Of a stretch of DNA of 49,917 nt, positions 9,843 to 34,561 are shown one piece after another. Below the pieces are notes generated by a model. It worked only from the letters and a program-made list of their open reading frames with translations, made no database searches and was not told the DNA's origin. The stretch lies in assembly GCA_020072805.1 (NCBI GenBank), contig JAIQGC010000069.1, positions 1 through 49,917 on the forward strand. Direction: 5' to 3'. The DNA comes from Terriglobia bacterium (GTDB lineage: Bacteria > Acidobacteriota > Terriglobia > Acidiferrales > UBA7541). The translations under genes and the position numbers were made by a program. The number at the start of each line of letters is the position of its first letter. Position 1 is the first letter of the stretch.

Positions 9843-11282
9843 CTAGACCGTCGCGCCGCCGTTTTGCTCGAAGGCCTGCGCCAATTGCAGCACGCGTGCT
9901 TCGCCAAAAGCCGGCCCAAAAAGTTGCAGCCCCACGGGAAGCTTGCCGTCGATTTTCCCGCACGGCACGGAAATCCCCGGAACTCCCGCCAGGGATCCCG
10001 TAACTGTATATATATCAGCAAGATACATCTGGAGCGGGTCGGCCGTGCGTTCCCCCAATTTGAAGGGTGGCACAGGGGAAGTCGGCGTCAGAATCGCGTC
10101 CACCTTGGTAAACGCCTCGCGGAAATCCCGCGCGATCAGCGCGCGCACCTTCTGCCCCTTGAGGTAGTAGGCGTCGTAATAGCCCGCCGAGAGCACGTAG
10201 GTTCCCAGCACAATCCGCCGTTTCACTTCCGCGCCGAAGCCCGCGCCGCGCGTCTTGCGGTACATCCCCACCAGGGAGTCTCCGTCGACGCGCAGGCCGT
10301 AGCGCACGCCGTCGAAGCGCGCCAGGTTCGAGCTGGCTTCCGCCGTGGCGATGATGTAGTAGGTGGCGATGGCGTAGTCGGTGTGCGGCATGCGCAGCTC
10401 CACCAGTTCGCAACCCAGCTTTCGGTAGATCTCGATCCCCGCCTCGATCTTCTTGCGCACTCCCTCGTCCATTCCCGGCGCGAAATACTCCTTGGGAATG
10501 CCCAGGCGCAGCCCCTTCACGGGTTTGTCCATCTCCGCCAAATAATCCGGCACGGCATCGGTGGTCGAAGTGGAATCGCGCGGGTCGCGCCCGGCAATGG
10601 CCTGCAGCACGCGCGCCACGTCGCCCACGCTTGTGGCGAAGGGGCCGATGCGGTCGAGCGAGGAGGCAAAGGCAATCAGCCCGTAGCGCGAAACCCGTCC
10701 GTAGCTGCCCATCATCGCCGGTATCCCGCAAAACGCCCCCGGTTGGCGTATCGACCCGCCCGTATCCGTCCCCAGCGACGCCACCGCCAGCCCCGCGGCC
10801 ACCACCGCCGCCGAGCCGCCGCTCGACCCTCCTGGCACGCGGTCCAGCGCCACCGGATTCTTCACCGGCCCGTAGGCCGAGTTTTCGTTCGAGCTGCCCA
10901 TGGCAAACTCGTCGCAATTGGTCTTGCCCAGGATGACCGCCCCGGCCGCTTCCAGCCGCTCGATCGCCGTGGCGTCGTAGGCCGGAACGTAGGGCTCCAG
11001 AATCTTCGACCCGCAGGTGGTCTTCGTTCCCCGCGTGCTGATGACGTCCTTGACGGCCACGGGCACGCCCGCCAGCGGCGGCAGCGGTTTTCCGGCGGCC
11101 ACCAGCGCGTCCACGCGCTCCGCCTGAGCCTGCGCGCGCTCCGGTGAGAGCGCCAGATACGCGTTCAACTCCGGATTGCGCGCTTCGATCCGCTTATAAA
11201 ATTCCGCGGTCAGCTCCCGCGCCGAAATCTTCTTCGCCGTGAGGGCCTCGCGTACGCCGTTAATTGTCCAGTTCGTCGCCAC
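9843..11282 (-). CDS. gatA: Aspartyl/glutamyl-tRNA amidotransferase subunit A
   Basis: GatA hydrolyses glutamine and delivers ammonia to misacylated Glu-tRNA(Gln)/Asp-tRNA(Asn) as part of GatCAB. The amidase-signature triad is complete: K78 in VAVKDV, cis-Ser S153 in GGSSGGSAA, and S177 in TDTGGSIRQ. Length (479 aa) is normal. One oddity is the segment before GRVSRYG, which reads CGIPAMMGSYG where most family members have CGVVGLKPTYG. The start is GTG at 11282 (MATNWTI); the ribosome site is weak. It follows gatC in the same direction with 65 bases between; gatB is not in this window, which is common when the subunits are split. Confidence 0.96.
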   Translation of the reverse strand: MATNWTINGVREALTAKKISARELTAEFYKRIEARNPELNAYLALSPERAQAQAERVDALVAAGKPLPPLAGVPVAVKDVISTRGTKTTCGSKILEPYVPAYDATAIERLEAAGAVILGKTNCDEFAMGSSNENSAYGPVKNPVALDRVPGGSSGGSAAVVAAGLAVASLGTDTGGSIRQPGAFCGIPAMMGSYGRVSRYGLIAFASSLDRIGPFATSVGDVARVLQAIAGRDPRDSTSTTDAVPDYLAEMDKPVKGLRLGIPKEYFAPGMDEGVRKKIEAGIEIYRKLGCELVELRMPHTDYAIATYYIIATAEASSNLARFDGVRYGLRVDGDSLVGMYRKTRGAGFGAEVKRRIVLGTYVLSAGYYDAYYLKGQKVRALIARDFREAFTKVDAILTPTSPVPPFKLGERTADPLQMYLADIYTVTGSLAGVPGISVPCGKIDGKLPVGLQLFGPAFGEARVLQLAQAFEQNGGATV

Positions 11283-11347
11283 CTGAGTATCCGTTTCCTT
11301 CTTTCTTCTATCTCCGTGCCTCTGTGCCTCTGCGGCAAATCCTCTGC

Positions 11348-11650
11348 CTATTTTTCGATCACCCTGGGCACGCGGAAGTAAGGAGCCTCCGGGTCGGGGG
11401 CGTACTTCAGCACTGTCGCGGCCACGTCGCTCACCACCACGGTATCCTCGCGCACCGTGGCGTCCGCCGCCTGGTCGCTCGAGAGCACCTGGGTCATGGG
11501 CTCGACTGTCGTCGTATCCAGCTCATTCAGCTTGCCCACGTATTCGAGGATGTCGTCCATCTGCGCCCGGTAGGTCTCGATCTCCGCTTCGCTCAGCTCC
11601 AGATAGGCCAGTTCGGCCACCCGCAGCACTTCTTCCCGGCTGATCTTCAT
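11348..11650 (-). CDS. gatC: Aspartyl/glutamyl-tRNA amidotransferase subunit C
   Basis: GatC is the small linker subunit that wraps around GatA and GatB. The 100-residue protein shows the family pattern: I-x-REEVLRVAELAYLELSE at the N-terminus, a central helix ILEYVGKLNELDT, then TTVEPMTQVL, and the C-terminal PEAPYFRVPRVIEK that inserts between partners. Start ATG at 11650 with GGGAGCAGGA immediately upstream. It is the first gene of the gatC-gatA-dinB-like unit. Confidence 0.95.
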   Translation of the reverse strand: MKISREEVLRVAELAYLELSEAEIETYRAQMDDILEYVGKLNELDTTTVEPMTQVLSSDQAADATVREDTVVVSDVAATVLKYAPDPEAPYFRVPRVIEK

Positions 11651-11771
11651 TCCTGCTCCCTGTCACATGCCGCACAAAACAGAAGGAGATTCTAGCACAG
11701 GCCCGGCGCGGCGCTCCGTAGTGCCAGGCTTGCCGCGCTGGCCCGGATTTCTCACAAGACTCCCGCAGTAG

Positions 11772-11791
11772 GGGCGGAGCTTACTCCGCCC
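11772..11791. repeat. GC-rich intergenic palindrome (copy 1)
   Basis: An 8-bp perfect inverted repeat, GGGCGGAG and CTCCGCCC with a CTTA loop, is preceded by 'GCAGTAG'. It lies in the 300-base spacer between gatC and the next gene. There is no T-run. Text of this type (gtaGGGGCGGAGCTTactccgccc) resembles a scattered extragenic palindrome; a partial match appears inside clpC at about 29018-29033. Confidence 0.5.
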
Positions 11792-11880
11792 GCTGCACCA
11801 GCAACCCGATTGCCCGTCCAGCCGCAAGCGTCACACTGTGGTTTTTTCTCTCGCCAAGAAAACTCCCCCGACTTCTGTAG

Positions 11881-11900
11881 CCGCCCTCTTTAGAGGGCGG
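11881..11900. repeat. GC-rich intergenic palindrome (copy 2)
   Basis: CCGCCCTCT pairs with AGAGGGCGG over 9 bp with a TT loop, preceded by 'TGTAG'. Same style as the palindrome about 100 bases away. On the plus strand it is followed by CCTTTT, but no plus-strand gene ends here, so I treat it as a repeat and not a terminator. Confidence 0.5.
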
Positions 11901-11952
11901 GCCTTTTCCCCCCGGCCGCGCAGACCTGCCCTTCCTCGTGAGAAATGCCGCG

Positions 11953-14016
11953 CTAGGGCTTGGTTTCCGGTTTGGAAGGAGAGGCTGGCGAGAGCTTCAG
12001 CAGCAGCCCCGTGGCGGTCTTGCGCACGTATTCCGATTCGTCTTTTTCCGCCGCCGTCGCGATCACTTCGCGCACTTCGGGAAACTGCGCGTGCATCTTC
12101 GCCAGGTTGGAGAGAATCCCCGCGCGCACCTTGTCGTCGCTTTCCGCCGCAAAAGCCTTGGTTTGCGCATCCACCGACGCCCGGCTGGGCTGCCGGAATC
12201 CCAGAGCAAACGCTGCTTCCCGGCGCACCACCGGCTCGGCATCTGTGGCCAGCGCAGTCAGCAGCAGCGGGTCCACCTCCGGCAACTTGAGCGCGCGCAT
12301 GCCGTCGAGCGCCGCCGCGCGCACGCCGGGCGTGGCGCTGGCCAGGCACTGCTTCAGGAAGGGAAGCGCGCTGGGGGAAGCCGTATTGCCCAGCGCCTGC
12401 AAGACATGCTGGATTTTTTCATCCGAAGCCCCCGGCTCGCTCCCCAGTTGCAGCAGGGAGTTCACCAGTTCTTCCGAGCGTTTGGGCTCCTTCTGCGCCA
12501 GGTTCCGGGCCATGCTGCCCATCGCCAGCAGCGCTCCCCCGGATGCATTGGGATTCTTCGCCGTAGCCGCCACCTCGCGCATGGCCTTTTCCGCCTCTTC
12601 CGTGGGATGCGGCACGGTTCCCAGCGTGGCGATCAGCTCCGGCAGGGCCTTGTCGTCCGACGTTCGCGACCGTATGGCGTGTATCAGCGCGCTCTGCGCT
12701 TCCGGATTCCCCACCGCGCCCAATGCGGCGGAGAGCACGCGATAGGTCGCGCTGGTGACGGGCGCTTCGCCCAGCGCCTTGCCCAATTCCGCGCAATCTT
12801 CCGGATGCAGATATATCAGCGCCTTGAATTTCAGATAGAGGGGCAGTTCGTCCGCCTCCTGCTTCTCGCTTTCCTGGGACTCGGAGGGCAGCGCGGCAAG
12901 CTGCGCCAAAAGATCCTTCAGCGTGGCTTCGCCCAGTTCCGTGCTCTGGATGTTGGCTTCGATTTCGGCGCGCGACCTGGGGCTATAGAGTGCCAGCGCC
13001 GGCGAGGTTTTCCTGATCCTATCCGCAAGCTGGAAAAGAATATCGAGTTCCTCCGCCAGCATGCTCTGGCGCGCTTCGCGCCGCAGGCTCAGCAGGGTTT
13101 CCGCATGAGCAACTTTCTTGCCCTGAATCTCGGTCTCCTGCGATTCCGTCCCTTGCAGCGAAGCCACCTCGCCGTTGACCGCATCGAAATGGACGGAGAA
13201 GTTCATCTTCGGCGTCAACACCTTCTTGGCATTCTCTCTTCCCGGCATCTCCGGTTCGGCGGCTTTTTCCTTTTCCGGCAGATAGCGCAGCTTGCTCTTG
13301 TGCAGTTCGATCCCGCCGCCTGTTTCGCTTCCCGCTTCCTTCTGGATGATGCGGTAGTGCGCCAGATAGAACCCGTTGCGGTCCTCTTCGCGGATCGTCC
13401 AGGACTGTCGGTTGGACGCATGCGCATCCGGAAGGACCACTTGCAGCACGGCGAGGAGGGTCAAAGTGAAATCCTGCGAAAATTTGCTCGCTCCCTCCTG
13501 CATGCGCAGCGCCGCAGGCCGGCCTTGCGGCGTCAGCTCCACCAGGAAGCCCCGTTTTAGCTCGCGCATGACCTCGCCGGCCTGCGCCTCCTGCAATTGG
13601 CCGTTGACGATCAATTGCACCGCCGGGTCTTGAAACACGATGAAAAGTTCCACCTGGCCTCCCGCTACGCGTAGAGTCGTCGCGCGCAGCAATCCCTGGA
13701 GGCTGGCGTTCAGTGCGTAGGCCAGGTTCGAGGAGGGAGGGGCGGATTGCTGTCCCTGGAACAGCACCCGCAAATCCGCATTGGCCCGCGATACGTAGGC
13801 GATCCGGTACGTGACGCTCGCCCCCGGTACGAAGCGGTAGACTGGAACCGGCGGCGCGGATTGGCCGGCCGCTCCCAGCGATACGCTGGCAAGAAAGGCG
13901 GCTGCAGCAAGCACCGCGCGGAGCAGTCGCGCTGCGTTGAACGACGGCCTTTCCCGATTCCTGCTTGCGCGGGCGCGAATTCTCCTCAAAAACTTCCGGC
14001 TTCCGCCTCCCATCAT
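11953..14016 (-). CDS. Secreted vitellogenin-N/LLTP-like protein with HEAT-type helical domain
   Basis: After a signal sequence (RLLRAVLAAAAFLASVSLGAAGQS) comes a beta-rich domain, about residues 55-320. It begins PVYRFVPGASVTYRIAY and includes LVELTPQGRPAAL, DFTLTLLAVLQVVLPD, QSWTIREED and the strand-rich MNFSVHFDAVNGEVASLQG. This order resembles the N-sheet barrel of large lipid transfer proteins (vitellogenin, apoB, MTP). The C-terminal half, about 350-670, is a superhelix of short HEAT-like pairs, as in the lipovitellin helical domain. Known members of that superfamily shuttle lipids; a lipid or hydrophobic cargo role here is inference. The gene is 48 bases downstream of a secreted beta-rich protein. 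The start is uncertain: the ATGs at 14016 and 14013 both sit in the loop of a 15-bp hairpin, and a TTG at 13989 is the next candidate. Confidence 0.8.
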   Translation of the reverse strand: MMGGGSRKFLRRIRARASRNRERPSFNAARLLRAVLAAAAFLASVSLGAAGQSAPPVPVYRFVPGASVTYRIAYVSRANADLRVLFQGQQSAPPSSNLAYALNASLQGLLRATTLRVAGGQVELFIVFQDPAVQLIVNGQLQEAQAGEVMRELKRGFLVELTPQGRPAALRMQEGASKFSQDFTLTLLAVLQVVLPDAHASNRQSWTIREEDRNGFYLAHYRIIQKEAGSETGGGIELHKSKLRYLPEKEKAAEPEMPGRENAKKVLTPKMNFSVHFDAVNGEVASLQGTESQETEIQGKKVAHAETLLSLRREARQSMLAEELDILFQLADRIRKTSPALALYSPRSRAEIEANIQSTELGEATLKDLLAQLAALPSESQESEKQEADELPLYLKFKALIYLHPEDCAELGKALGEAPVTSATYRVLSAALGAVGNPEAQSALIHAIRSRTSDDKALPELIATLGTVPHPTEEAEKAMREVAATAKNPNASGGALLAMGSMARNLAQKEPKRSEELVNSLLQLGSEPGASDEKIQHVLQALGNTASPSALPFLKQCLASATPGVRAAALDGMRALKLPEVDPLLLTALATDAEPVVRREAAFALGFRQPSRASVDAQTKAFAAESDDKVRAGILSNLAKMHAQFPEVREVIATAAEKDESEYVRKTATGLLLKLSPASPSKPETKP

Positions 14017-14032
14017 AGGAGGCGGAAGCCGG
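13996..14032 (-). terminator. 15-bp perfect hairpin with T-run between the two LLTP-pair genes
   Basis: 13996-14010 and 14018-14032 are perfect reverse complements (15 bp, GC-rich), with the seven-base loop TATGATG on the minus strand. The minus strand continues AAGTTTTTGAGG. This has the form of an intrinsic terminator for the upstream gene ending at 14065. The loop also holds the two ATG codons that open the next reading frame, so it may partly terminate, or control initiation, instead of simply ending the message. Confidence 0.65.
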
Positions 14033-14064
14033 TTGTGTCGATTGCGTATTTGCCCGCTGACGCG

Positions 14065-15801
14065 CTACCAGGGCAACTGGGTCGTGTTCTTGACGTCAAA
14101 GAGCACGCTGTTGTACTGCAACCCGTCCCAGGACCAGAGATTGGCGTCCCATTCGCTGTTGCAGATGTCCGGCCAGGGGTCGAGGCATGGGTAGTAGACT
14201 TTGGCGAAAACATACATATTCCCGCCCAGCATGTTCAGGTTGCTGTCCGCATACAGTTCTTCCTGGATGAAGAAATTATGGTTCCAGCCCAGTCCGGCCG
14301 TGCCGTGCAGGGTCATGTCCCAGTTGATCAGCGTGAGATTCACTCCCACCCCGGCTTCGGCCACCACCACGCTCAAGGAAGCCTGCGCGTACACGCTGGA
14401 ATGAACAAACGGCCCTCCGGAGATGGATACGTTGGTGGGAAAGAGAGCGATCGAGTACTGGAAGCCCACGCTGCCTTTCGTTCCGATGGTGGCGTCAATA
14501 TTGAACGGGCCGACGGGTATGGGGATGCTGACGCTGAAATCCACGTCCTTGGAGATGTGGTCGTCAATGCCCCACTGCGCGGTGGCCGTCTTGTTCAGGC
14601 TGAAGATATCCAGGCCCAGAGCGTAGATGCCCAGTCCGGCCGAGACGGTATTCTTGGGACCGTCGCCGCCAATTTCCCCGGTGATCCGCAGCAGTTCGCC
14701 GCCGATGCCGAAGACCGTACCGCCGGCTTTCCCTTCCGCCGTCACCTTGAAGGTGCTCGCGTTATTTTGGAAGTTGTTCACAAAGGCCGGTGCGCAGGCC
14801 TTTCCGGTCAGGCTGATGCTGCCGTTCACATAGGCTTCAAATGTGCTCGGATCCCCCACTTCCCAATTCCAGTTCTGGGAATCGTTGATGGACTTGCACT
14901 GGCCCATCAATACCGGCGCCGTCGCCACCCCCGGCCTCGTTGGAGTGGGCAGCTTCAGGGAAACGGTCGCCGCGATCCTGTCGATTGTTTGCGTATCAAT
15001 CACCATTCCGTCGCGCATGATTCCGCGGACATTGGCCGCCGCGAGCTTCTGGTTGACGTCCTCGAGCGTTACTTCGCGGGCCGCGACCGCAGGCATATTG
15101 GGGTTCGGCGGTTTTACGGCCGCGTTGGGGGCCGGGACGGAGCCGGCCGGCTTCACCGCCGGCTCGATTATGGCCCGGTTGGCGATGGGCGCGTGGTTCA
15201 GCGTCGTGGCTTCGGGTTTCAACTGAACGGCCTGCGGCGTGGACAAATTCCGGTAGCTATTCAGTGCCAGCAGGTTCGGCCGGCGCGCCAGCGCGGAGGG
15301 CCGGGGCGCCAGTTGAATCTGCCGCTGAATCAATCCGTGGTCGAGCGGAATTTCATGCAGCTTGGTCTTTGCGCCGCGCGGAGTGGTGTGCAGCGAATGG
15401 CCATGCTCGCTGAGCCATTTTTCGTAGTTGTTCAGCTCGCTGTAGTATTGCTGCGCCGTGGGCTTCTTGCCGTTGGGCAGGGTGATGATGGCCGTGGGCG
15501 CGATGGGCTTGTCCGTCTTGGGGTCCTTCATTTCGAAAGCCTTGAATGCAATGGCCGCCCGGCTCTGCGTCTGAAACAGGTTGGGGCGGATCACCATCTT
15601 TTCCGGCGCGACCCGGATCAGATTTCCGGCGAGAACTCCTTTGCTGAGTTGCTTTCTTTCCCGGGGTTGCGCGCCAGGCTCTCTGTTCTGCGCCGACGCC
15701 GGGCTTGCGAATATGGCCGCAAGAATCATGGCGGCAACCAGCCCGGCCATACTTCCTGCTCTCGCATGAACCATTCGAGAAGCAAAATACCTTTCTCTCA
15801 T
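14065..15801 (-). CDS. Secreted beta-rich protein, partner of the vitellogenin-N-like protein
   Basis: The 578-residue protein begins with a signal peptide (AGLVAAMILAAIFASPASAQ). An N-terminal linker rich in Pro/Ala/Asn (about 30-250) follows, then a C-terminal half dominated by alternating beta-strand segments: STFEAYVNGSISL, TFKVTAEGKAGGTVFGIGG, VGFQYSIALFPTNVSISG, QASLSVVVAEAGVGVNLTLIN. The end, YVFAKVYYPCLDPWP then LWSWDGLQYNSVLF, contains Cys and aromatic residues and a WDG turn. I do not recognise a named domain. The strand pattern is compatible with a lipid-binding open sheet or a barrel, which is inference. Start ATG at 15801 is chosen because GAGGTG lies seven bases upstream; earlier in-frame ATGs lack this. 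It leads a two-gene leftward unit. Confidence 0.72.
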   Translation of the reverse strand: MRERYFASRMVHARAGSMAGLVAAMILAAIFASPASAQNREPGAQPRERKQLSKGVLAGNLIRVAPEKMVIRPNLFQTQSRAAIAFKAFEMKDPKTDKPIAPTAIITLPNGKKPTAQQYYSELNNYEKWLSEHGHSLHTTPRGAKTKLHEIPLDHGLIQRQIQLAPRPSALARRPNLLALNSYRNLSTPQAVQLKPEATTLNHAPIANRAIIEPAVKPAGSVPAPNAAVKPPNPNMPAVAAREVTLEDVNQKLAAANVRGIMRDGMVIDTQTIDRIAATVSLKLPTPTRPGVATAPVLMGQCKSINDSQNWNWEVGDPSTFEAYVNGSISLTGKACAPAFVNNFQNNASTFKVTAEGKAGGTVFGIGGELLRITGEIGGDGPKNTVSAGLGIYALGLDIFSLNKTATAQWGIDDHISKDVDFSVSIPIPVGPFNIDATIGTKGSVGFQYSIALFPTNVSISGGPFVHSSVYAQASLSVVVAEAGVGVNLTLINWDMTLHGTAGLGWNHNFFIQEELYADSNLNMLGGNMYVFAKVYYPCLDPWPDICNSEWDANLWSWDGLQYNSVLFDVKNTTQLPW

Positions 15802-15901
15802 TGCGGTGCACCTCATCTCGTGTGGGGATAGCCGGTGGGCATGCCGAGTTTTCATGTGTCGTCAGGCATCTCCGGCTTGCTGCCTTGCTTTGATGAGGGC
15901 C

Positions 15902-15930
15902 AGCGTAGCAAGGGCCCGCCGGGGGAACAA
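15902..15930 (-). promoter_or_regulatory. Putative promoter for the LLTP-like pair
   Basis: On the minus strand, TTGTTC (15930-15925) and TACGCT (15907-15902) are separated by 17 bases, about 100 bases before the ATG at 15801. Confidence 0.35.
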
Positions 15931-15974
15931 GGATACGGCTTCTTCGATTTGCTTTGTTGGGTACTCCCAGGGGG

Positions 15975-17240
15975 CTAGGCGGTTTTGCGAGGGTACTTGG
16001 TGGCGATGTAGTTGTCCACCAGGGATTGGAACGCGGCGGCCAGTTCGTCGTAAGTGCCTTCGAGGGTGACGTCTTTCTGGCCATCAATATAGACGGGGCA
16101 GCGCGGGGCTTCGCCGGTGCCGGGGAGGCTGATGCCGATGTTGGCGGCTTTGGATTCGCCGGGGCCGTTGACGATGCAGCCCATCACCGCGAGGGTCATG
16201 GTCTCGACGCCGTCGTACTGCGTTTTCCAGAGGGGCATGCTGTCGCGGATGTAACCCTGAATGCGCTCGGCGAGTTCCTGAAACGTGGTGCTGGTGGTGC
16301 GGCCGCAGCCGGGGCAGGCGGTCACGCTGGGCGAGAAGGAGCGCAGACCCAGCGATTGCAGGAGTTCGCAGGCGGCATAGACTTCTTCGCGGCGGTCGCC
16401 GCCGGGGCGCGGCGTGAGCGAAATGCGAATCGTGTCGCCGATGCCTTCGTGCAGGAGCACGCCGAGCGATGCGGCGGACCAGACGAGTCCTTTGGTGCCC
16501 ATGCCCGCTTCGGTGAGGCCAAGGTGCAGGGGCTGCTCGGTCTTGGCGGAAAGATCGCGATAAACGGTGATGAGGTCGCGGGGGCGCGAGGTCTTGCAGG
16601 AGATGATGATCTGGTCGTGACGCAGGCCGCATTCGAGAGCCAGTTCGGTGGATTCGAGCGCGGAGAGCACCATGCAATCGTTGATGATCTCTTCGGATTC
16701 CTTGCCGAGGTTCTTGTCCGTGTTTTCCTGCATCTTGCGCATGACCAACTCCTGATTGAGCGAGCCGCCGTTGACGCCGATGCGCACGGACTTGTTGTTG
16801 TCGCGGGCGACTTTGCAGATGGTGGCGAACTGCTCGTCGCGGCGCTGACCGGCGCCGACGTTGCCGGGATTGATGCGGTATTTGTCGAGAGCCTTGGCGC
16901 ATTCGGGGTATTTGGTGAGCAGGACGTGGCCGTTGTAATGGAAGTCGCCGATGATGGGCGCGGTGCAGCCGGCGTCGAGCAGGCGCTTTTTGATGATGGG
17001 GACGGCTTCGGCGGCTTCCGGGACGTTGACGGTCCAGCGCACGATTTCCGAGCCGGCTTCGGCCAATTCCATCGTTTGCTTGAATGTGGTTTCGACGTCG
17101 ACTGTGTCCGTGTTGGTCATGGACTGGACGACGATGGGCGCGCCGCCGCCCACCTGGATGTGGCCGACCTTCACGCCATAGGTATTGCGGCGGGGGTGGC
17201 GGGCGCCGGTGGTGTCAAAGCCTTTGATCTGGTTGAGCAT
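15975..17240 (-). CDS. ispG: 4-hydroxy-3-methylbut-2-enyl diphosphate synthase (GcpE)
   Basis: IspG converts 2-C-methyl-D-erythritol 2,4-cyclodiphosphate to HMBPP, the penultimate step of the non-mevalonate isoprenoid pathway, in the cytosol. The 421-residue protein has the N-terminal TIM-barrel motifs ([33 protein letters not shown]). The C-terminal [4Fe-4S] ligands are C309 and C312 in TACPGCGRT and C355 in [10 protein letters not shown], with the conserved glutamate E362. Length fits the two-domain bacterial form. The start ATG at 17240 is standard for the family ([18 protein letters not shown]). A weak TAGAAT lies a few bases upstream, so the leader may be very short. It is transcribed divergently from nothing nearby; the next gene upstream also runs leftward. 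Confidence 0.97.
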
Positions 17241-17327: not shown

Positions 17328-17822
17328 TTATTCTAGGCTTCCGAAACTGCCGGTAACAGTCTGCTTTACCATCGCTGTTTTAATTATTGGAGCTTTCGGC
17401 ATGGTTGATTTGGGCGGCGCTTGGCTCGCCGCCAGAGCTTGGACAAGCTGCATAAAGATAACTGTATTCCGCGCTGCGCCAGTTAGCTCAAAACGAACTG
17501 GACCAGAGAACTTGAAATCCGTAAATTGGAAATTGCCTCCGCCGTATCTCAGTACTGCACCGTTGAATACACAGCGAACGCATTCGCTCCCATCGACGCC
17601 AAAAGCGCCGCCAGGAATCGCTAAGCCGAAATCTGTGAAGTGGGAAGATATGGGTGGAACTGTTGGGACACCACTACCTCCGATTATGAGTGGTGCTTGT
17701 GTTGGTGGTGCTTGCGACGGGGGTGCTTGTGCCAGAATAAATGCTTGGCTCCCCGAAAACAAAAAGAACGAAGTCAGCACGCCTAACGCAAACGACGCGA
17801 ATGCAATCGTGACTTTGGACAT
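17328..17822 (-). CDS. Secreted or membrane-anchored hypothetical protein, lower GC
   Basis: The 164-residue protein has an N-terminal hydrophobic segment (FASFALGVLTSFFLF) followed by a Pro/Gln/Ala repeat (APPSQAPPTQAP). A small strand-rich domain follows: ECVRCVFNGAVLRYGGGNFQF then FKFSGPVRFELTGAARNTVIF. The two nearby cysteines could pair. The 'FELTGAARNT' strand-turn resembles small hypothetical proteins seen in other soil bacteria, but I know no function. The GGAGGTGCT ribosome site directly before ATG 17822 is the best in this part of the window. Base composition is clearly less GC-rich than the neighbours, which suggests recent acquisition. An overlapping plus-strand frame (17311-17949) lacks a good ribosome site and was rejected. 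Confidence 0.68.
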   Translation of the reverse strand: MSKVTIAFASFALGVLTSFFLFSGSQAFILAQAPPSQAPPTQAPLIIGGSGVPTVPPISSHFTDFGLAIPGGAFGVDGSECVRCVFNGAVLRYGGGNFQFTDFKFSGPVRFELTGAARNTVIFMQLVQALAASQAPPKSTMPKAPIIKTAMVKQTVTGSFGSLE

Positions 17823-26579: not shown

Positions 26580-27806
26580 ATGCGCTTCGAATGGTTCGTC
26601 GCGCGGCGGTATCTGCGGTCACCTTACCGTCCGGCGGTGCTGCGGCTGGTGACGGCGTTTTCGGTGCTGGGAGTAGGCGCGGGCGTGGCTACGCTGGTGG
26701 TGGCGCTGGCCATGAACACCGGCTTCCGCGAAACCATTCAAGACCGCCTGCTGGGCGTCACCGCGCACGTCTCGCTTACGCGCCCCGGCGCCGGGGGCAT
26801 GCAGGACTATGAGTCCCTCGCGCAGCGATTGGCCGCCATCCCCGGCGTTCGCTCGGTCACTCCCGCGGTTTACCAGACTGTGCTGCTTTCCTTCGGAGGG
26901 CAGGCGCGCGGCGTGGTGGTTAAAGGAGTAGACCCGGCACGGGAGCGGCGCTTCGATGAAGCCCTGCAACGTGTTGTAGCGGGGAAGCTTGATTTTGCGC
27001 CCGATTCCGACGGGATCGAAGCGATTTTGATGGGAAAACTGCTGGCCGACGAATGGAAGGTCAAGCCCGGCGATTATGTAACGCTGCTGAGCCCGCAGGG
27101 GCGACTCACGCCGTTTGGGATGATGCCGCGCACGCGGCGATTCCGGGTGGCCGGAATTTTCGAATCGGGCTTTTTCGATTACGACGAAAATTGGTGCTTC
27201 CTCACGCTGCCCGCGGCGCAGAATCTGGCCGGTTCGGGCGACACGGTCAACGTGATTGAACTGCGCCTGGCCAGCCCCGACCTGGCTCCCGACATAGCGC
27301 GGCAGGCGGCTTCCGCCGCGGGCGCAGGCTATGCCGCGACCACCTGGATGGATGAGAACCAGGCGCTGTTTCGCGCGCTGCACCTGGAAAAACTGGTGAC
27401 GTCTATTTTCATCGGATTGATTACTTTTGTGGCGGGCCTCAACATTCTGGTGGTTCTCTCGATGACCGTCACCGACAAGGCCCGCGACATCGCCGTGCTC
27501 ATGGCCATGGGCACGCGCCCCGCGCAGATTCGCCGCATTTTTCTGCTGCAGGGAATCGCCATCGGCGCCAGCGGAACGCTGGCCGGACTACTGCTGGGAT
27601 ACGCCATTGCCTGGACCGCGGGCGCTTACCATTTGATCCCCATTGACCCGCAAGTCTATGCCGTGGCCTACGTTCCCTTTCACCCGGTCTTGGCCGACGG
27701 ATTGGGAATCGCCCTGGCGGCGATGGGAATATCCACGGCGGCGACGCTGATACCGGCGCGGGCGGCCTCGAAACTGCTCCCGGTGGAAATCTTGCGTTAT
27801 GAGTAG
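26580..27806 (+). CDS. LolC/LolE-type lipoprotein-release ABC permease
   Basis: The 408-residue protein has the classic FtsX/MacB layout: an N-terminal cytoplasmic helix MRFEWFVARRYLRS and a transmembrane helix (about 23-46, VTAFSVLGVGAGVATLVVALAM). A large periplasmic domain (about 55-265) includes LLGVTAHVSLTRPG and FGMMPRTRRFRVAGIFESGFFDYDE. Three C-terminal transmembrane helices follow (about 270-300, 318-345, 370-395), the first with the RDIAVLMAMG coupling motif. LolCDE extracts mature lipoproteins from the inner membrane. Only one permease is present, so it may act as a homodimer. The ATPase gene is 356 bases downstream on the same strand. Start ATG 26580 follows GACGGGCGGGGCGC. Confidence 0.9.
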   Translation: MRFEWFVARRYLRSPYRPAVLRLVTAFSVLGVGAGVATLVVALAMNTGFRETIQDRLLGVTAHVSLTRPGAGGMQDYESLAQRLAAIPGVRSVTPAVYQTVLLSFGGQARGVVVKGVDPARERRFDEALQRVVAGKLDFAPDSDGIEAILMGKLLADEWKVKPGDYVTLLSPQGRLTPFGMMPRTRRFRVAGIFESGFFDYDENWCFLTLPAAQNLAGSGDTVNVIELRLASPDLAPDIARQAASAAGAGYAATTWMDENQALFRALHLEKLVTSIFIGLITFVAGLNILVVLSMTVTDKARDIAVLMAMGTRPAQIRRIFLLQGIAIGASGTLAGLLLGYAIAWTAGAYHLIPIDPQVYAVAYVPFHPVLADGLGIALAAMGISTAATLIPARAASKLLPVEILRYE

Positions 27807-28162
27807 TTTGCAAGGGAGAGAAAAGCGAAGAAAGATTCCGGAATGGTGCAGTGGTTGCAGGTTATGCAGGTATGGATTGGGCGGGTCATCCAAATCAATG
27901 GTACGAAATGTGCCGAATGCGGATTATTCGCCTAACTAATTGAATTAAAAGCAATTAAAAGTGGTTCAAGTTGAAACAGTTTCTGTCAACAGAGTATGAA
28001 CTGGGGGATTGGCTGGATGTAGGAAATAAATTATCTTTCGGGGAAAATTTGTGGCACTGCGCTTCGGCACTGTTGAGGGGGAGCAGGCATCTAAGATAAG
28101 GAAGAGGAAAACCGGGCCGGGAGAAGTAAGGCGAGGGCGAGCGGGCGGAAAAAGCGGAGAGT
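27807..28162 (+). promoter_or_regulatory. 356-base lower-GC spacer between permease and ATPase, with a putative promoter
   Basis: No gene is seen. The middle (about 27920-28050) is AT-rich in an otherwise GC-rich region. TTGAAA at 27971-27976 and TATGAA at 27995-28000 are 18 bases apart and could drive lolD and clpC. The rest holds no recognisable motif. Confidence 0.35.
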
Positions 28163-28942
28163 ATGGAAAGAGCGAATGCCAATTCGGCGGGTTCTGAGTT
28201 GCGCGGCGCGGGAGCAGGCGCGCGGGTGGTGCTGGAGGCGCGGGACCTGCGCAAGAGTTACGGCCGCGGCGTACAAGCGTTGCAAATTCTCAGCGGAGTG
28301 AATCTTTCGTTGCGCGAAGGGGAGATGGTGGCGATCGTGGCGCCCTCGGGAGCAGGGAAGAGCACGCTGCTGCATCTGCTAGCCGCGCTAGACACGCCGT
28401 CAAACGGTGCAGTATACTTTGGGGCGAAAGCGATCGAAACAAATGATGAGGCGGCGCTGGCCGCGTTGCGCAATCGCGCCATTGGTTTTGTCTGGCAGAG
28501 GCATCAATTGCTGCCCGATTTTACGGCGGCGGAGAATGTGGCCATGCCGCTGTTGGTGCGCGGCGAAAAGTTTGCTTCGGCGCTCGACCGGGCGCTGGGG
28601 CTGCTCGAGGAAGTGGGGCTGGCGCAGCGCGCGAGCCATCGGGCAGGTGAGCTTTCCGGCGGGGAACAGCAGCGCGTAGCGATAGCCCGGGCGCTCGTCA
28701 CCGGACCATCGGTGCTGCTGGCGGATGAACCCACCGGAGACCTGGACGAGCAGAATGCTTGGGCCGTGTTCGAACTTCTGGAACGATTGCACCGCACGCA
28801 CCGCCTGACGTCGCTTCTGGCGACGCATAATCTGGCGATTGCGGCGCGCTGCGACCGGGTTCTGGGGCTGGAACATGGCGTTCTGCGGACTCGCCCGGCT
28901 GCGGCCTGGGCGATGGGGACCCCCGAGGGAGAAGCGAGCTAA
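28163..28942 (+). CDS. LolD-type ABC transporter ATP-binding protein
   Basis: The 259-residue ATPase has Walker [10 protein letters not shown] (about 60-68), Q-loop [10 protein letters not shown] with the LolD-like [11 protein letters not shown] after it, signature LSGGEQQR (164-171), Walker [13 protein letters not shown] (184 onward) and switch H222. '[13 protein letters not shown]' is typical for LolD and MacB-like ATPases, so it is assigned to the lipoprotein-release permease upstream. The N-terminus has an extra Ala/Gly-rich stretch before [15 protein letters not shown]. clpC starts two bases after the stop, so the two are likely co-transcribed. Confidence 0.88.
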
Positions 28943-28944
28943 TC

Positions 28945-31311
28945 GTGTTTGAACGATATACCGAGAAGGCGCGACGCGTCATATTCTTTGCCCGGTACGA
29001 AGCCAGCCAGGCGCCGATAAGGGGCGGGGCTTGCATGCTACAGGGCCAGAAGCCTTTCGGTCGCTTCCAGCAGGCGCTCCATACGGAACGGCTTGGGATT
29101 TCCACATCAGTCGAAGTGCCGCTCAGCGCGGAATGCAAGCGCATCCTGAACATGGCCGCGGAAGAGGCCGAACGCCTGGGGCATAAGCACGTGGGCACCG
29201 AGCATCTGCTGCTGGGCATTCTGCGCGAGGAGAAGTGTTTCGGCGCGGAAATTCTGATGGAGCGCGGTCTGCGGCTCACCGCCCTGCGCGAAGAGATGGC
29301 GCGCACCTCCGGCGAGAAGACCGCCGCGGCGCGTCCCAAGGAGACTTCCCTGCTGGCGGAGTTCAGCCGCGATCTGACGCAGGCGGCCGGGGAAGGTACT
29401 CTCGATCCCCTGGTGGGACGGGAAAAGGAAGTGGAGCGGGTCATCCAGATTCTCTGCCGGCGCACCAAAAATAATCCCGTATTGATTGGCGAGCCCGGCG
29501 TGGGCAAAACGGCCATCGTGGAAGGACTGGCGCAGCGTATTGCCGACAGCGACGTGCCTTCGTTCCTGGCGGACAAGAAGATTCTGGCACTGGATCTTTC
29601 GCTGATCGTGGCCGGCACGAAGTACCGCGGGCAGTTCGAGGAGCGGCTGAAGACGATCATGAAGGAACTGATGGAGAACCAGAACTCCATCGTATTTATT
29701 GATGAGCTGCACACGCTGGTGGGAGCCGGTTCGGCGGAAGGTTCCCTGGACGCCGCGAATATTCTCAAGCCGGCGCTTTCGCGCGGGGAAATCCAGTGCA
29801 TCGGGGCCACCACGCCGGGGGAGTACCGCAAATCGGTGGAAAAGGACCGTTCGCTGGAGCGCCGCTTCCAGGCCGTCAAAGTGCCCGCGCCCAATGAGGA
29901 TGAGGCCATCCAGGTGCTCAACGGGGTGCGCGAGCGCTACGAAAAATTCCACGCGGTGACCTATACCGACGAGGCTCTGCGCTACGCCGTCTATCTCTCC
30001 AACCGCTATATTCCCGACCGTTTTCTTCCGGACAAGGCCATCGACCTGATCGATGAAGCCGGCGCGCGGGTGAAGCTGCGCCAGGCGTCTGTGCCGGACG
30101 AAGTCGCCGAAGTGCCGAAGCGGGTGAAGTTCATCACGCACCGCATGGAAGCGGCCATCGCCAACCACGAATTCGAAAAGGCGCGGTTCTATTCGGAAGA
30201 AGAGCGCAAGGAGAAGGAAAACCTGCGCGCGCTGCGCGAACGCTTCAAGCTGGATGACGCTTCGACCGGAATCGTCACGCGGGAAGACATCGAGGAAGTG
30301 GTCTCACGCTGGACCGGCGTGGCGGTCACGTCCATCAAGGAAGACGAACAGCAGAAGCTGCTGCGCATGGAAGTCGAACTGCACAAGCGGGTCATCAGCC
30401 AGGACAAGGCCATTACCGCGCTGGCCCGGGCCATTCGCCGCAGCCGCGCCGGGCTGAAGTCGCCGCAGCGCCCGGTGGGCTGCTTCCTGTTCCTGGGCCC
30501 CACGGGCGTGGGCAAGACGGAAGTGGCCCGGCGCCTGGCCGAATTTCTATTCGGCACGGAGAAATCGCTGGTGCGCTTCGACATGTCCGAATTCATGGAA
30601 AAGCATTCGGTTTCCAAGCTCATCGGCGCCCCTCCGGGCTATGTGGGCTACGAAGAAGGCGGGCAGATGACCGAGCGGGTGCGCCGTTCGCCCTATTCGG
30701 TGATCCTGCTGGACGAAATTGAAAAGGCCCATCCGGACGTCTTTAACATCCTGCTGCAGGTGTTCGAGGACGGGCAGCTATCGGACGGTTTGGGAAATAC
30801 AGTGGACTTTCGCAATACGATCATTATTATGACTTCCAACCTTGGGGCGCGGCATTTGCAGAAGCGCTCCTCGATCGGGTTCCAGTCCGGCGCGGAAGAT
30901 GCCGGGCAGAAGAGCCTGGACGATCTGGTCATGAACGAAGTGAAGCGCGCGTTCAATCCGGAGTTTCTGAACCGGCTGGACGAGGTGATCCTCTTCAATC
31001 CGCTCGCGGACGAGGATTTGCTGCGCATCATTGATCTGCTGGTTGGGCAGATGAATGATACACTCATCCACCGGCAGGTTCAGATCAGCCTGGCGCCGGA
31101 AGCGCGGCAGTGGATTCTGGAGAAGACTTGTGCGGACCGCAACTATGGAGCGCGTCCGCTCCGCCGGGCCCTGCAGAAGTATGTCGAAGACCCGCTCTCT
31201 GAGTCTCTGATTCAGGGAGGTATTCAGCGGCCTGCTACGTTGCTGGTGTACGTGGCGGGAGAGGGCTTGGCCTTCCGTCCTCTGGTTGAGGCAACCCCGG
31301 TCATCCACTAG
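28945..31311 (+). CDS. clpC: ATP-dependent Clp protease ATP-binding subunit ClpC, with altered N-domain
   Basis: The 788-residue AAA+ unfoldase has two ATPase modules with Walker A at GEPGVGKT (near 182) and GPTGVGKT (near 518), the ClpB/C arginine-rich middle region, and a C-terminal small domain ending [15 protein letters not shown]. It would unfold substrates for ClpP. The N-terminus begins normally ([22 protein letters not shown]). The next 29 residues (23-51) are not Clp_N-like and replace about 55 residues that normally follow; normal sequence resumes at [15 protein letters not shown]. Hence one Clp_N repeat is broken, in frame. See the finding on this. GTG start at 28945. Confidence 0.95.
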
Positions 31312-31388
31312 AGAATCTGAACACGCACGACCGGTCCAGACCGGGACCGGCAGGAGATAGGCAAATTGCGTTTGGGGATGCGCCTGTG

Positions 31389-34300
31389 ATGCTCTCACGG
31401 GCTGCTGGCAGAAAATACTGTTCGTTTTCCGGGGCGCTGCGCGCTCCCCTGCTGCTTTTGTGGCTGCTTGCTGTTCCCGCCGCCTGGGCGCAGACCTCCT
31501 CTCCGAATCCTTCCACGCCGTATTCCCCCTCGACAGAATCCTCCTCGAAGCACAGGCCCAACCCCAACTCCCGCTTCGCCAAGGCCGCGGCCCATGCGCT
31601 GCACGCCCCGGCCGGGCGCAGGGATCTGGGCGAGGCGCTGGAGCAGCCCGTGGCGCAGGAGCAGAGGCCCGCTGCCGCGGGAGAACCGGCTGCGCAGGCG
31701 GCTCTGGTGATTGACCGCGTGGACTTTGTGGGCAACCGCCGGGTGCGCACGGATACGCTCAAGGCGCGCATCTTCACGCGCGAAGGGGACGCCTACAGCG
31801 AGGAGACGCTTAAGAGGGATTTCCAGGCGTTGTGGAATACGCAGTTTTTTGACGACGTGAAGCTGCGCGTGGAAGTCAGCCCCAAGCGTCCCAATGCGCG
31901 GATTATTATTTTTGACGTGCAGGAGCGGCCGGTGATTCGCCGCATCCGCTACGACGGGATTCATTCCGTGAGCGAATCGGACATTCTCGACCGCTTCAAG
32001 GAAAAAAAGGTCGGGCTCACTGTGGAAAGCCAGTTCGATCCCACGCGCATCAAGAAAGCCGAAGTGGTGCTGCGCGACCTGCTGGCCGAGCACGGCCGGC
32101 AGTTTGCCAAGGTCAAGCCGCAATACGAAAAGATCACCGCCAGCAATGCAGTCATCCTGGTGTTCAAGGTGGACGAAGGCCCCAAGGTGAAGGTGGGGAG
32201 AATCCGCTTCACCGGCAATCACGCTTTCAGCGACCGCAAGCTCATCCGCGCCATGCGCCATTCCCGCCCCTATGCCATCCCCCTGTACTTCGCCAACCTC
32301 AACGCCTTTTCGAAAACGTTTGACCGCCAGAAGCTCAATGAGGATCTGGAGGTCGGGGTCCGCGGGATGTATCAGGACAGCGGCTATTTCAAGGTGACGG
32401 TTAAGGACCCCATCCTGGAAAACGTGGAAATCGTGCGCGAGGGCATTCCCGTGCCGCTGCTTCCCTTCGTCAGCCGGAAGCAAGGCAAGGCCGTGAACAT
32501 CACCATTCCCATCGATGAGGGTTCGCGCTACGTCATGGGGAAGCTGAATATCGTTCCCGCCGATCCGGATAAGCCCCTGTCGCTCAAGGTGGAACCGCTG
32601 AAGTCCATCTTTCCCTTAAAGACGGGCGACCTTTTCGCCGTGGGAAAGATCCGCAAGGCGCTCGAAGAGTACCGCAAGGTGTACGGGAATTACGGCTTCA
32701 TCGATTTCACGGCGGAGCCGGATTCGGACGTGGACGAGGACAACAAACGGATTAACCTCACGCTGCGCTTCAACGAAGAGAAGCAGTTTTATGTGCGGCG
32801 CATCGAATTCAGCGGCAACACCACCACCCGCGACAAGGTCATCCGCCGCGAAGTGCTGGTGGACGAAGGGCAGCTCTTCAACCAGCGCGCCTGGGAAATG
32901 AGCATCTTGCGGCTGAACCAGCTGGATTACTTCGAGCAGATCAAGCCGGAAAACGCGGAAATCGCGCGCAACACCAAGGACGGCACGGTTGATATCACCC
33001 TCAAGGTAAAGGAAAAGGGCAAGCAGTCCATCGGACTGCAGGGCGGATTCAGCGGGCTGGCCGGCAGCTTCGTGGGGCTCACCTACCAGACCAACAATTT
33101 TCTGGGTTTGGGCGAGACGCTGACGTTTTCCTCGGAATTCGGCGACCGCCAGCGCAATTTCATGTTCGGCTTCACCGAACCTTATCTTTTCGACCGCCCC
33201 ATCTCCACCGGCTTCACCATTTTCAGCAGCCGTTACAGTTTTAACCAGGCGCAGCAGGCGGCGCAGATGTATAACCAGCAGATCAGCGCCAACCCGCAGC
33301 TGATCCAGAACTACAATCAGAACAGCACCGGGTTCACCGTATTTGCCAGCTATCCCATCCGGCGTTTCTCCTTTACGCGCATCGGACTGACCTATTCGCT
33401 GAGCAAGACCAACATCACGGCCTTCAGCGACGCTTCCAAGCTTCTTTTCGAGACGGTGCAGTTCCGCAGCCTGGCCGGCCCCAGCGCCACGAATGGAATT
33501 CTTTCGAGCAATCTCACTCCGACCATCTCCTATAACACGGTCAACCATCCCATCAATCCGACCGGGGGCAAGAGCTTTTCCTATTCGCTCAGCATGCAGG
33601 GCGGAGTGCTGGGCGGCAACGTGAACGCCATCACCAACGTCTTCGAACATAAGCATTTCTTCGCCGTGCACAAGCACCGCAACGTCTTTGGCTATCGTGT
33701 GCAGACGGCCTTCACCACGAGCTTCGGCGGCCTGGAACTGCCTCCCAACGTGCGCTTCTACATGGGCGGAGAAGACACCGTGCGCGGTTTCGATATCCGC
33801 ACCATCTCTCCGGTGGCCTTCATCCCCATCAAGACTTCCGTCGGTTTCTCCTTCCCGGATATTCACCACCTGGATGCCAACGGAAATCCGATCATGACCT
33901 CGCGGTCCATCCCCGCGCTCACTTACCAGATGACTTTTCCGGGAGGAGACCTGCAGGGCCTGGGCAACATCGAATACCGCATTCCCATCGTGGGCCCGGT
34001 GACCATGGCTTTCTTTCTGGACGGAGGCACGACCGGGATCATCAAGCGCAACGGCCTGCAGCTCAATCCCGTTGGTTTACAGGACCTCCAGACCACATTT
34101 CCGGGGGCCAGTCTCGGGGGCCAGTTGCCGCTGGGTTCGCGCACCAATTTCCATCTGCGCAGTTCCGCCGGAGTCGAATTTGTCGTGCAGTTGCCCATTG
34201 TGCAGGCGCCTTTCCGCATCTATTACGCTTACAATGTCAGCCGCTTGCGGCAGCAGATTATCGGCCCGAACAATTACATCGAGCCCTCCTCCAAGGATAG

Positions 34301-34445
34301 TTTGATCAACGAACTTTCTTCCTATCCGGGCGTTTACGACAATCTTTTCAAGCCGTTTTTGGATGCTTATCCCAGCAGCCGCTCGAATCTCAATTTCTTC
34401 GAACCCACGCACACGTTCCGCTTTACCGTGAGCCGGACGTTCTGA
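31389..34445 (+). CDS. bamA: Outer-membrane protein assembly factor BamA
   Basis: The 1018-residue protein inserts beta-barrel proteins into the outer membrane. It has a signal peptide (LLLLWLLAVPAAWA), a short disordered Ser/Pro-rich stretch, and five POTRA domains (about 100-500, starting ALVIDRVDFVGNRRV; the last at QFYVRRIEFSGNTTTRDKVIRR). The C-terminal Omp85 barrel contains the invariant VRGFD motif in GGEDTVRGFDIRTIS, and the protein ends in Phe (FTVSRTF), the outer-membrane signature. Start is ATG at 31389; GTG at 31386 is adjacent. It leads bamA-lipoprotein-skp, the expected BAM/chaperone context with a large lipoprotein inserted between. Confidence 0.96.
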   Translation: MLSRAAGRKYCSFSGALRAPLLLLWLLAVPAAWAQTSSPNPSTPYSPSTESSSKHRPNPNSRFAKAAAHALHAPAGRRDLGEALEQPVAQEQRPAAAGEPAAQAALVIDRVDFVGNRRVRTDTLKARIFTREGDAYSEETLKRDFQALWNTQFFDDVKLRVEVSPKRPNARIIIFDVQERPVIRRIRYDGIHSVSESDILDRFKEKKVGLTVESQFDPTRIKKAEVVLRDLLAEHGRQFAKVKPQYEKITASNAVILVFKVDEGPKVKVGRIRFTGNHAFSDRKLIRAMRHSRPYAIPLYFANLNAFSKTFDRQKLNEDLEVGVRGMYQDSGYFKVTVKDPILENVEIVREGIPVPLLPFVSRKQGKAVNITIPIDEGSRYVMGKLNIVPADPDKPLSLKVEPLKSIFPLKTGDLFAVGKIRKALEEYRKVYGNYGFIDFTAEPDSDVDEDNKRINLTLRFNEEKQFYVRRIEFSGNTTTRDKVIRREVLVDEGQLFNQRAWEMSILRLNQLDYFEQIKPENAEIARNTKDGTVDITLKVKEKGKQSIGLQGGFSGLAGSFVGLTYQTNNFLGLGETLTFSSEFGDRQRNFMFGFTEPYLFDRPISTGFTIFSSRYSFNQAQQAAQMYNQQISANPQLIQNYNQNSTGFTVFASYPIRRFSFTRIGLTYSLSKTNITAFSDASKLLFETVQFRSLAGPSATNGILSSNLTPTISYNTVNHPINPTGGKSFSYSLSMQGGVLGGNVNAITNVFEHKHFFAVHKHRNVFGYRVQTAFTTSFGGLELPPNVRFYMGGEDTVRGFDIRTISPVAFIPIKTSVGFSFPDIHHLDANGNPIMTSRSIPALTYQMTFPGGDLQGLGNIEYRIPIVGPVTMAFFLDGGTTGIIKRNGLQLNPVGLQDLQTTFPGASLGGQLPLGSRTNFHLRSSAGVEFVVQLPIVQAPFRIYYAYNVSRLRQQIIGPNNYIEPSSKDSLINELSSYPGVYDNLFKPFLDAYPSSRSNLNFFEPTHTFRFTVSRTF

Positions 34446-34561
34446 TGAGTTTCGAAAAGGAAGCGCAGGGGATGAGGACAGGAAAGAATACGATGAAGGG
34501 TTCCACAAATAGCGCGCATGAGCGTGCCGCGGGATGCGGCGCGGCGCGGGAGGTTAGTCGA

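Follow-up and report, generated by a model that had tools for sequence, protein, structure and literature searches.

A putative two-gene, exported counterpart of the animal large lipid transfer proteins in bacteria

Two adjacent genes of a Terriglobia bacterium, here called P1 and P2, probably encode an exported, bipartite large lipid transfer protein (LLTP) that carries lipid in the bacterial envelope. LLTPs (MTP, lipovitellin/vitellogenin and apoB) move lipid in animals. The genes lie in the window, by which we mean the whole 49,917-nucleotide stretch that was analysed (contig JAIQGC010000069.1 of assembly GCA_020072805.1); the coordinates of their features are collected in Table 1. P1 is an LLTP homologue over both its N-terminal β-barrel and its helical arch, P2 has a predicted fold that resembles the lipid-binding C-/A-sheet half that P1 is without, and the two genes remain paired across phyla. 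The profile match of the N-domain, the result of the structural search and the conservation of the pair each lie far above their own controls and beyond chance.

The sequence of P1 scores 64.2 bits against the Pfam family Vitellogenin_N (PF01347; gathering cut-off 24 bits), with residues 349-638 aligned to profile positions 279-589, and the same profile has no match in 14 control genomes. P1 was also searched in pieces because HEAT repeats could mimic such a match. The segment 346-527, in which no HEAT_2 match passes the cut-off, keeps a co-linear PF01347 match of 30.3 bits, and the final 160 residues (528-687) align, again co-linearly, to the profile's end. None of ten generic HEAT proteins from the same phylum scores above 22.5 bits, even though HEAT_2 scores reach 346 bits in some of them. 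PF01347 is matched at E 0.01 by 29 of 41 P1 relatives, and by 12 of the 41 when their N-domains are isolated (best E 7.8e-9).

A profile built from the 41 sequences and compared with all Protein Data Bank (PDB) sequences finds lipovitellin at E 2.4e-27 (profile 38-532 on chain 2-511) and MTP at E 6.7e-20 (15-559 on 4-551). When the profile is restricted to the N-domain, thereby removing the HEAT repeats, lipovitellin is the only significant match (E 6.9e-7; the next match is at 1.1). The wider set of sequences was needed for this result, as an N-domain profile from only 13 sequences finds nothing significant in the PDB. The lipovitellin match falls exactly on the helix and strand signature that the original prediction, made from this DNA alone, had quoted as that of the LLTP N-sheet: bacterial N..R..L...Q..LP...W...E.D..G.Y...Y is aligned to lipovitellin NIVRGILNLFQ...FELQETGVEGICQTTYVV. 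The cysteine of the animal signature (G.C...Y) is replaced by Tyr in the bacterial one, and the N-domain of P1 contains no Cys. The quoted motifs are features of the family as a whole, with W, E, D, G and Y conserved around WTIREEDRNGFYLAHY.

The fold of P1 agrees with its sequence matches. An AlphaFold2 model computed from an alignment of 14 sequences (mean predicted local distance difference test score, pLDDT, 83.9) contains a strand at residues 66-81 (in VPGASVTYRIAY), further strands, a helix at 178-191, a strand at 205-212 (SWTIREED), strands up to residue 318 and helices from 321 to 675. This is the strand and helix order, followed by a HEAT-like superhelix in the second half of the protein, that had been predicted, and the predicted signal sequence is likewise recognizable by eye as a Sec-type region at about residues 28-51. 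In a Foldseek search with the model, the first 11 matches are all LLTPs (MTP, lipovitellin, apoB, honey bee vitellogenin and the apoB barrel), with E values from 1.3e-17 (MTP) to 1.4e-10 and with lipovitellin at 1.4e-15; the first non-LLTP follows at 6.6e-6. With VIA-align, P1 residues 61-680 superimpose on lipovitellin 17-633 (Z 17.8, 559 residues, root-mean-square deviation (rmsd) 8.6) and residues 59-443 on the apoB barrel 9bd8 (Z 16.9, 316 aligned, rmsd 6.5). One locus, L045:7914-9999, has a P1 gene that is frameshifted in its assembly and has a lipobox-like ISGC in its N-terminal part, so some P1 proteins may be lipoproteins.

The VIA-align table for P1 is filled by solenoids; alphaRep and others equal or exceed the LLTPs in Z, essentially over the helical part only. 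These scores, together with the canonical HEAT repeats in the C-terminal third of P1 and the fact that HEAT_2 is its best single Pfam match (71.3 bits), could be taken to mean that P1 is an ordinary exported HEAT scaffold fused to an unrelated β-domain, with the vitellogenin match a by-product of the repeats. We consider this very improbable, since the isolated N-domain matches both lipovitellin and PF01347, generic HEAT proteins remain under the PF01347 cut-off and the non-LLTP structures cover little but the helices. The ten HEAT controls and the behavior of the N-domain on its own lead us to reject a generic HEAT origin of the LLTP match, unless the alignment of N-domain to lipovitellin is wrong.

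P1 ends after the helical arch and so has no C- and A-sheets for lipid binding on its own chain. Such sheets are predicted in the product of the neighboring gene. The original prediction placed a partner gene at 14065-15801, and the open reading frame (ORF), the shared minus strand and the 48-base gap to the P1 ORF all stand; the start does not, because the ORF runs to 15855 and position 15801 is an internal Met of this longer frame. The true start is probably downstream of 15855, with 15801 as one possible site. The product was also described as secreted and β-rich with a WDG turn, and this agrees with what we find: a Sec-type signal region is evident by eye, the model consists mostly of long β-strands (13 of them within residues 323-593), and the WDG belongs to a conserved W.G motif close to the C-terminus in the family alignment. 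A Foldseek search with the C-terminal sheet domain returns MTP as the best match (E 3.3e-5, probability 1.00), followed by lipovitellin (E 2.5e-3). In VIA-align, residues 326-592 of the P2 model superimpose on MTP 614-880 (Z 8.7, 233 aligned, rmsd 8.1). The P2 strands alternate strongly in hydropathy, with a mean even-odd gap of 2.41 versus 1.16 +- 0.25 in shuffles, and the strands of the P1 barrel show no such alternation. This pattern is expected for sheets with one greasy face, and would also fit a membrane barrel.

P2 might instead be an outer-membrane β-barrel, for which P1 would be a periplasmic adaptor. OmpT, autotransporter and TonB-receptor barrels reach Z 8-9 in VIA-align and tie with MTP. 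Foldseek, however, does distinguish the two, with MTP at E 3e-5 (probability 1.00) and barrels at E >0.05; most of the barrel matches cover no more than a portion of the P2 domain, no consistent C-terminal aromatic β-signal is present, and in three loci the sheet domain is followed by a further domain. On this evidence we give the barrel interpretation little credence. The further domain comprises about 300 additional C-terminal amino acids with repeated YRNRLYVFHRG-like units (L046:3573-6332, L042:3-974 and L063:65-1267) and is possibly a β-propeller.

How the two proteins might work together is suggested by the domain organization of MTP, which consists of a barrel (22-297), a helical domain (298-603) and a C-terminal sheet domain (604-894) with lipid binding and transfer (PMC3337244); the lipid cavity is enclosed by the C-sheet (604-717) and the A-sheet (722-886) (PMC10907164). 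P2 aligns to MTP 614-880, within these sheets, and P1 and P2 therefore match complementary parts of one protein. In the arrangement that we favor, P1 would contribute the N-terminal β-barrel and a horseshoe-shaped helical arch, and P2 would contribute two lipid-binding β-sheets, the counterparts of the MTP C- and A-sheets. The two proteins would be exported separately, to the periplasm or beyond, and would there fold together around a hydrophobic cavity holding lipid or another greasy cargo, which would be moved from one membrane of the envelope to the other or released outside the cell. The heterodimer, its cavity, the lipid cargo and the site of action are what we infer from these matches. 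Phospholipid would be the natural first guess for the cargo because MTP is considered to have begun as a phospholipid transfer protein (PMC3337244).

An alternative division of labor, paralleling the action of MTP for apoB or vitellogenin, would make P1 an MTP-like chaperone or loader and P2 its client, an amphipathic β protein that would be loaded with lipid and leave the cell in particle form. Obligate pairing, the existence of P1 and P2 as separate chains and the extra modules that P2 carries in some genomes (the C-terminal ~300 amino acids in L042, L046 and L063) would all be accommodated. P2 is small for a particle protein, however, and it matches the part that is absent from P1 (MTP 614-880), as would be expected of a missing half more than of a client; we judge the loader-client arrangement unlikely.

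Several points weigh against a bipartite LLTP. The fold of P2 is predicted with moderate confidence (predicted template modelling score, pTM, 0.43; pLDDT 58 overall and ~75 for residues 320-596). In sequence, P2 matches neither an LLTP domain nor a family of any other kind among PDB profiles and Pfam, and its link to MTP is through the fold alone; outer-membrane barrels score about level with MTP in VIA-align. No gene indicating a particular lipid is found beside the pair. Finally, two other genomes of the same phylum have P2-like genes (L124:7607-9592 and L125:5827-7845) with no P1 in 16-17 kb of DNA each, and P2 may have an existence of its own apart from P1.

The pairing itself is conserved well beyond the window. 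A scan of one genome collection identified 13 P1 relatives in Acidobacteriota, Cyanobacteria, Planctomycetota, Pseudomonadota/Deltaproteobacteria and Silvanigrellales, so the pair is not restricted to Acidobacteriota. P2 adjoins P1 in all 13 (14/14 with the window), directly in 11; for L042 the pairing is seen through a P2 C-terminus at the contig end, and for L048 through another fragment of that gene elsewhere in the assembly. Three arrangements occur: P2 then P1 on one strand in most loci, tail to tail in Holophagaceae (L049-L052), and P1 first in L053. In a wider survey of 50 P1 genes, a P2 match lies within ~1.5 kb of 39, and longer flanks add five clear and two weak cases, for a total of ~44/50 clear; two of the last four are on short contigs. 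Some of the loci tested had themselves contributed to the P2 profile, which was assembled by iteration; those of the longer-flank check were not in it, and the profile has no match at 27 generic-HEAT loci. No P1-P2 fusion was found among the P1 relatives examined. Long open frames such as that of L077 were considered as fusions and rejected, being overlapping frames. At L063:2609-3289, a gene that looks LolA-like by eye adjoins that genome's P1 piece on the opposite strand, probably by chance.

In wider sampling, with the seed genome counted in each case, P1 is carried by 15/199 genomes of Planctomycetota (the phylum of L047), by 28/58 of the phylum that includes L053, often as several copies per genome, by 3/297 in the window's phylum, by 1/244 cyanobacteria and by 1/198 in the phylum of L046. 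Genome G553, which also belongs to Planctomycetota, carries about seven genes of the P1 type, each on a different contig (L069, L079, L085, L086, L088, L089 and L090), most with a recognizable or weak P2-like neighbor. A tree of 41 P1 proteins resolves planctomycete, Silvanigrellales-phylum and mixed groups, with several weak forks; the mixed clade contains Acidobacteriota, Cyanobacteria, Planctomycetota and Pseudomonadota, a pattern such as lateral transfer would give. P1 and P2 distances co-vary (Spearman 0.42; permutation maximum 0.33), which we take as a sign of co-inheritance only and do not count as proof of contact.

Within the window, the pair is located between ispG (15975-17240) and gatC-gatA (9843-11650). 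P1 is present in 0/35 sampled congeners. The ispG-gatC interval was compared in five of them: ispG and gatC are ~90 bases apart and have neither P1 nor P2 between them in two congeners, other DNA occupies the interval in two more, and gatC is outside the examined stretch in the fifth. The two-gene block, flanked on both sides by housekeeping genes, was therefore gained in the window lineage or lost in its relatives. No plasmid-borne copies of the pair are found in PLSDB.

A block of this kind might have been acquired recently from an animal, or might be contaminating eukaryotic DNA, as LLTPs are otherwise described from animals (PMC3337244). The contig, however, also carries gatA, gatC, ispG, infB and an Omp85/BamA gene, the codon composition of the pair matches that of its neighbors, and its guanine plus cytosine content does not mark it as foreign. 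Relatives with deep branches in several bacterial phyla, and a system split over two genes, also speak against an animal source, which we regard as exceedingly improbable.

Among the animal proteins, the MTP large subunit (MTTP; PDB 6i7s, 8eoj) has the N-barrel and helical arch of P1, C/A lipid sheets that the predicted P2 fold resembles and a similar overall domain set, with none of the additional domains found in vitellogenin; its structural alignment with P1 shows ~13% identity. Unlike MTP, a single chain kept in the endoplasmic reticulum with PDI, the bacterial version is made from two genes and exported, and P2 has an extra small N-terminal domain. No PDI-like gene was seen beside the pair. 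Vitellogenin/lipovitellin (1lsh, 9enr) provides the best sequence match of the P1 profile (2.4e-27), N-sheet signature included, but the bacterial pair is much smaller, has Tyr in place of the signature cysteine and has no phosvitin or von Willebrand D part that we could find. The N-terminal β/α1 region of apoB-100 (9bd1, 9bd8) matches the fold of P1 over residues 57-682, as well as that of the barrel alone; the very long lipid-particle belt of apoB is absent from P1 and P2. Bacterial HEAT-repeat proteins (PF13646) share the canonical repeats of the C-terminal third of P1 but are without the N-barrel and fall below the PF01347 cut-off.

We know of no LLTPs described from outside animals. Open-access full texts contain no bacterial LLTP that we could find, which is weak evidence given that subscription papers and preprints were outside the scope of that search. 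An annotation of P1 would be easy to come by because Pfam alone would label it; what is new here is the division over two genes, and what P2 is. The data suggest that the LLTP fold exists outside animals, in two pieces. A bolder scenario, which we hold tentatively and at somewhat less than even odds, is that LLTPs are not an animal invention: they would be an old, diverse and laterally spread bacterial two-subunit system, and the animal single-chain MTP/vitellogenin/apoB line would have arisen from a P1-P2-type fusion. Animal lipoproteins are made and carried by MTP, apoB and vitellogenin, and a bacterial two-piece LLTP would root this family outside animals. Its small size would allow the barrel, the arch and the lipid sheets to be produced and studied one by one, and the bacterial envelope would gain a soluble lipid carrier of a new kind, bearing on lipid traffic between the membranes.

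Table 1. Features of the P1-P2 locus (window coordinates; signal regions are Sec-type, judged by eye)
Feature	Coordinates	Strand	Details and basis
P1, exported LLTP-like subunit, N-barrel and helical arch	11953..14016	-	687 aa; PF01347, Foldseek, profile matches
P1 signal region, ~residues 28-51	13864..13935	-	By eye: basic stretch then LLRAVLAAAAFLASVSLGAAG; model helix 28-45
P1 N-terminal β-barrel domain with central helix, residues 61-318	13063..13836	-	Model, apoB barrel match, N-domain profile
P1 N-barrel signature, helix then W...E.D..G.Y...Y, residues 178-221	13354..13485	-	Aligned to lipovitellin NIVRGILNLFQ...FELQETGVEGICQTTYVV
P1 helical superhelix, residues 321-675	11992..13056	-	Model; match of 346-527 to PF01347, 30.3 bits
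P2, putative exported β-rich partner	14065..15855	-	596 aa; ORF and conserved neighbor of P1
P2 signal region, ~residues 35-56	15688..15753	-	By eye: MAGLVAAMILAAIFASPASAQ
P2 conserved small N-terminal domain, residues 95-160	15376..15573	-	Alignment; pLDDT 83-90
P2 domain resembling the lipid sheets, residues 320-596, with 13 long amphipathic strands	14068..14898	-	Foldseek, MTP alignment, amphipathicity
Two-gene block between gatC and ispG, missing in congeners	11651..15974	.	Congener comparison

Elsewhere in the window, positions 17328-17822, adjoining ispG, encode a small protein (164 aa) that matches no Pfam family and begins with a signal-like sequence. The region 26580-38572 encodes a MacB/FtsX permease (LolC/E-like), a ClpC-type AAA protein, an Omp85/BamA protein with five POTRA domains and, directly downstream of BamA, a protein of 1376 aa that Pfam does not recognize and whose position suggests a TamB-like protein.

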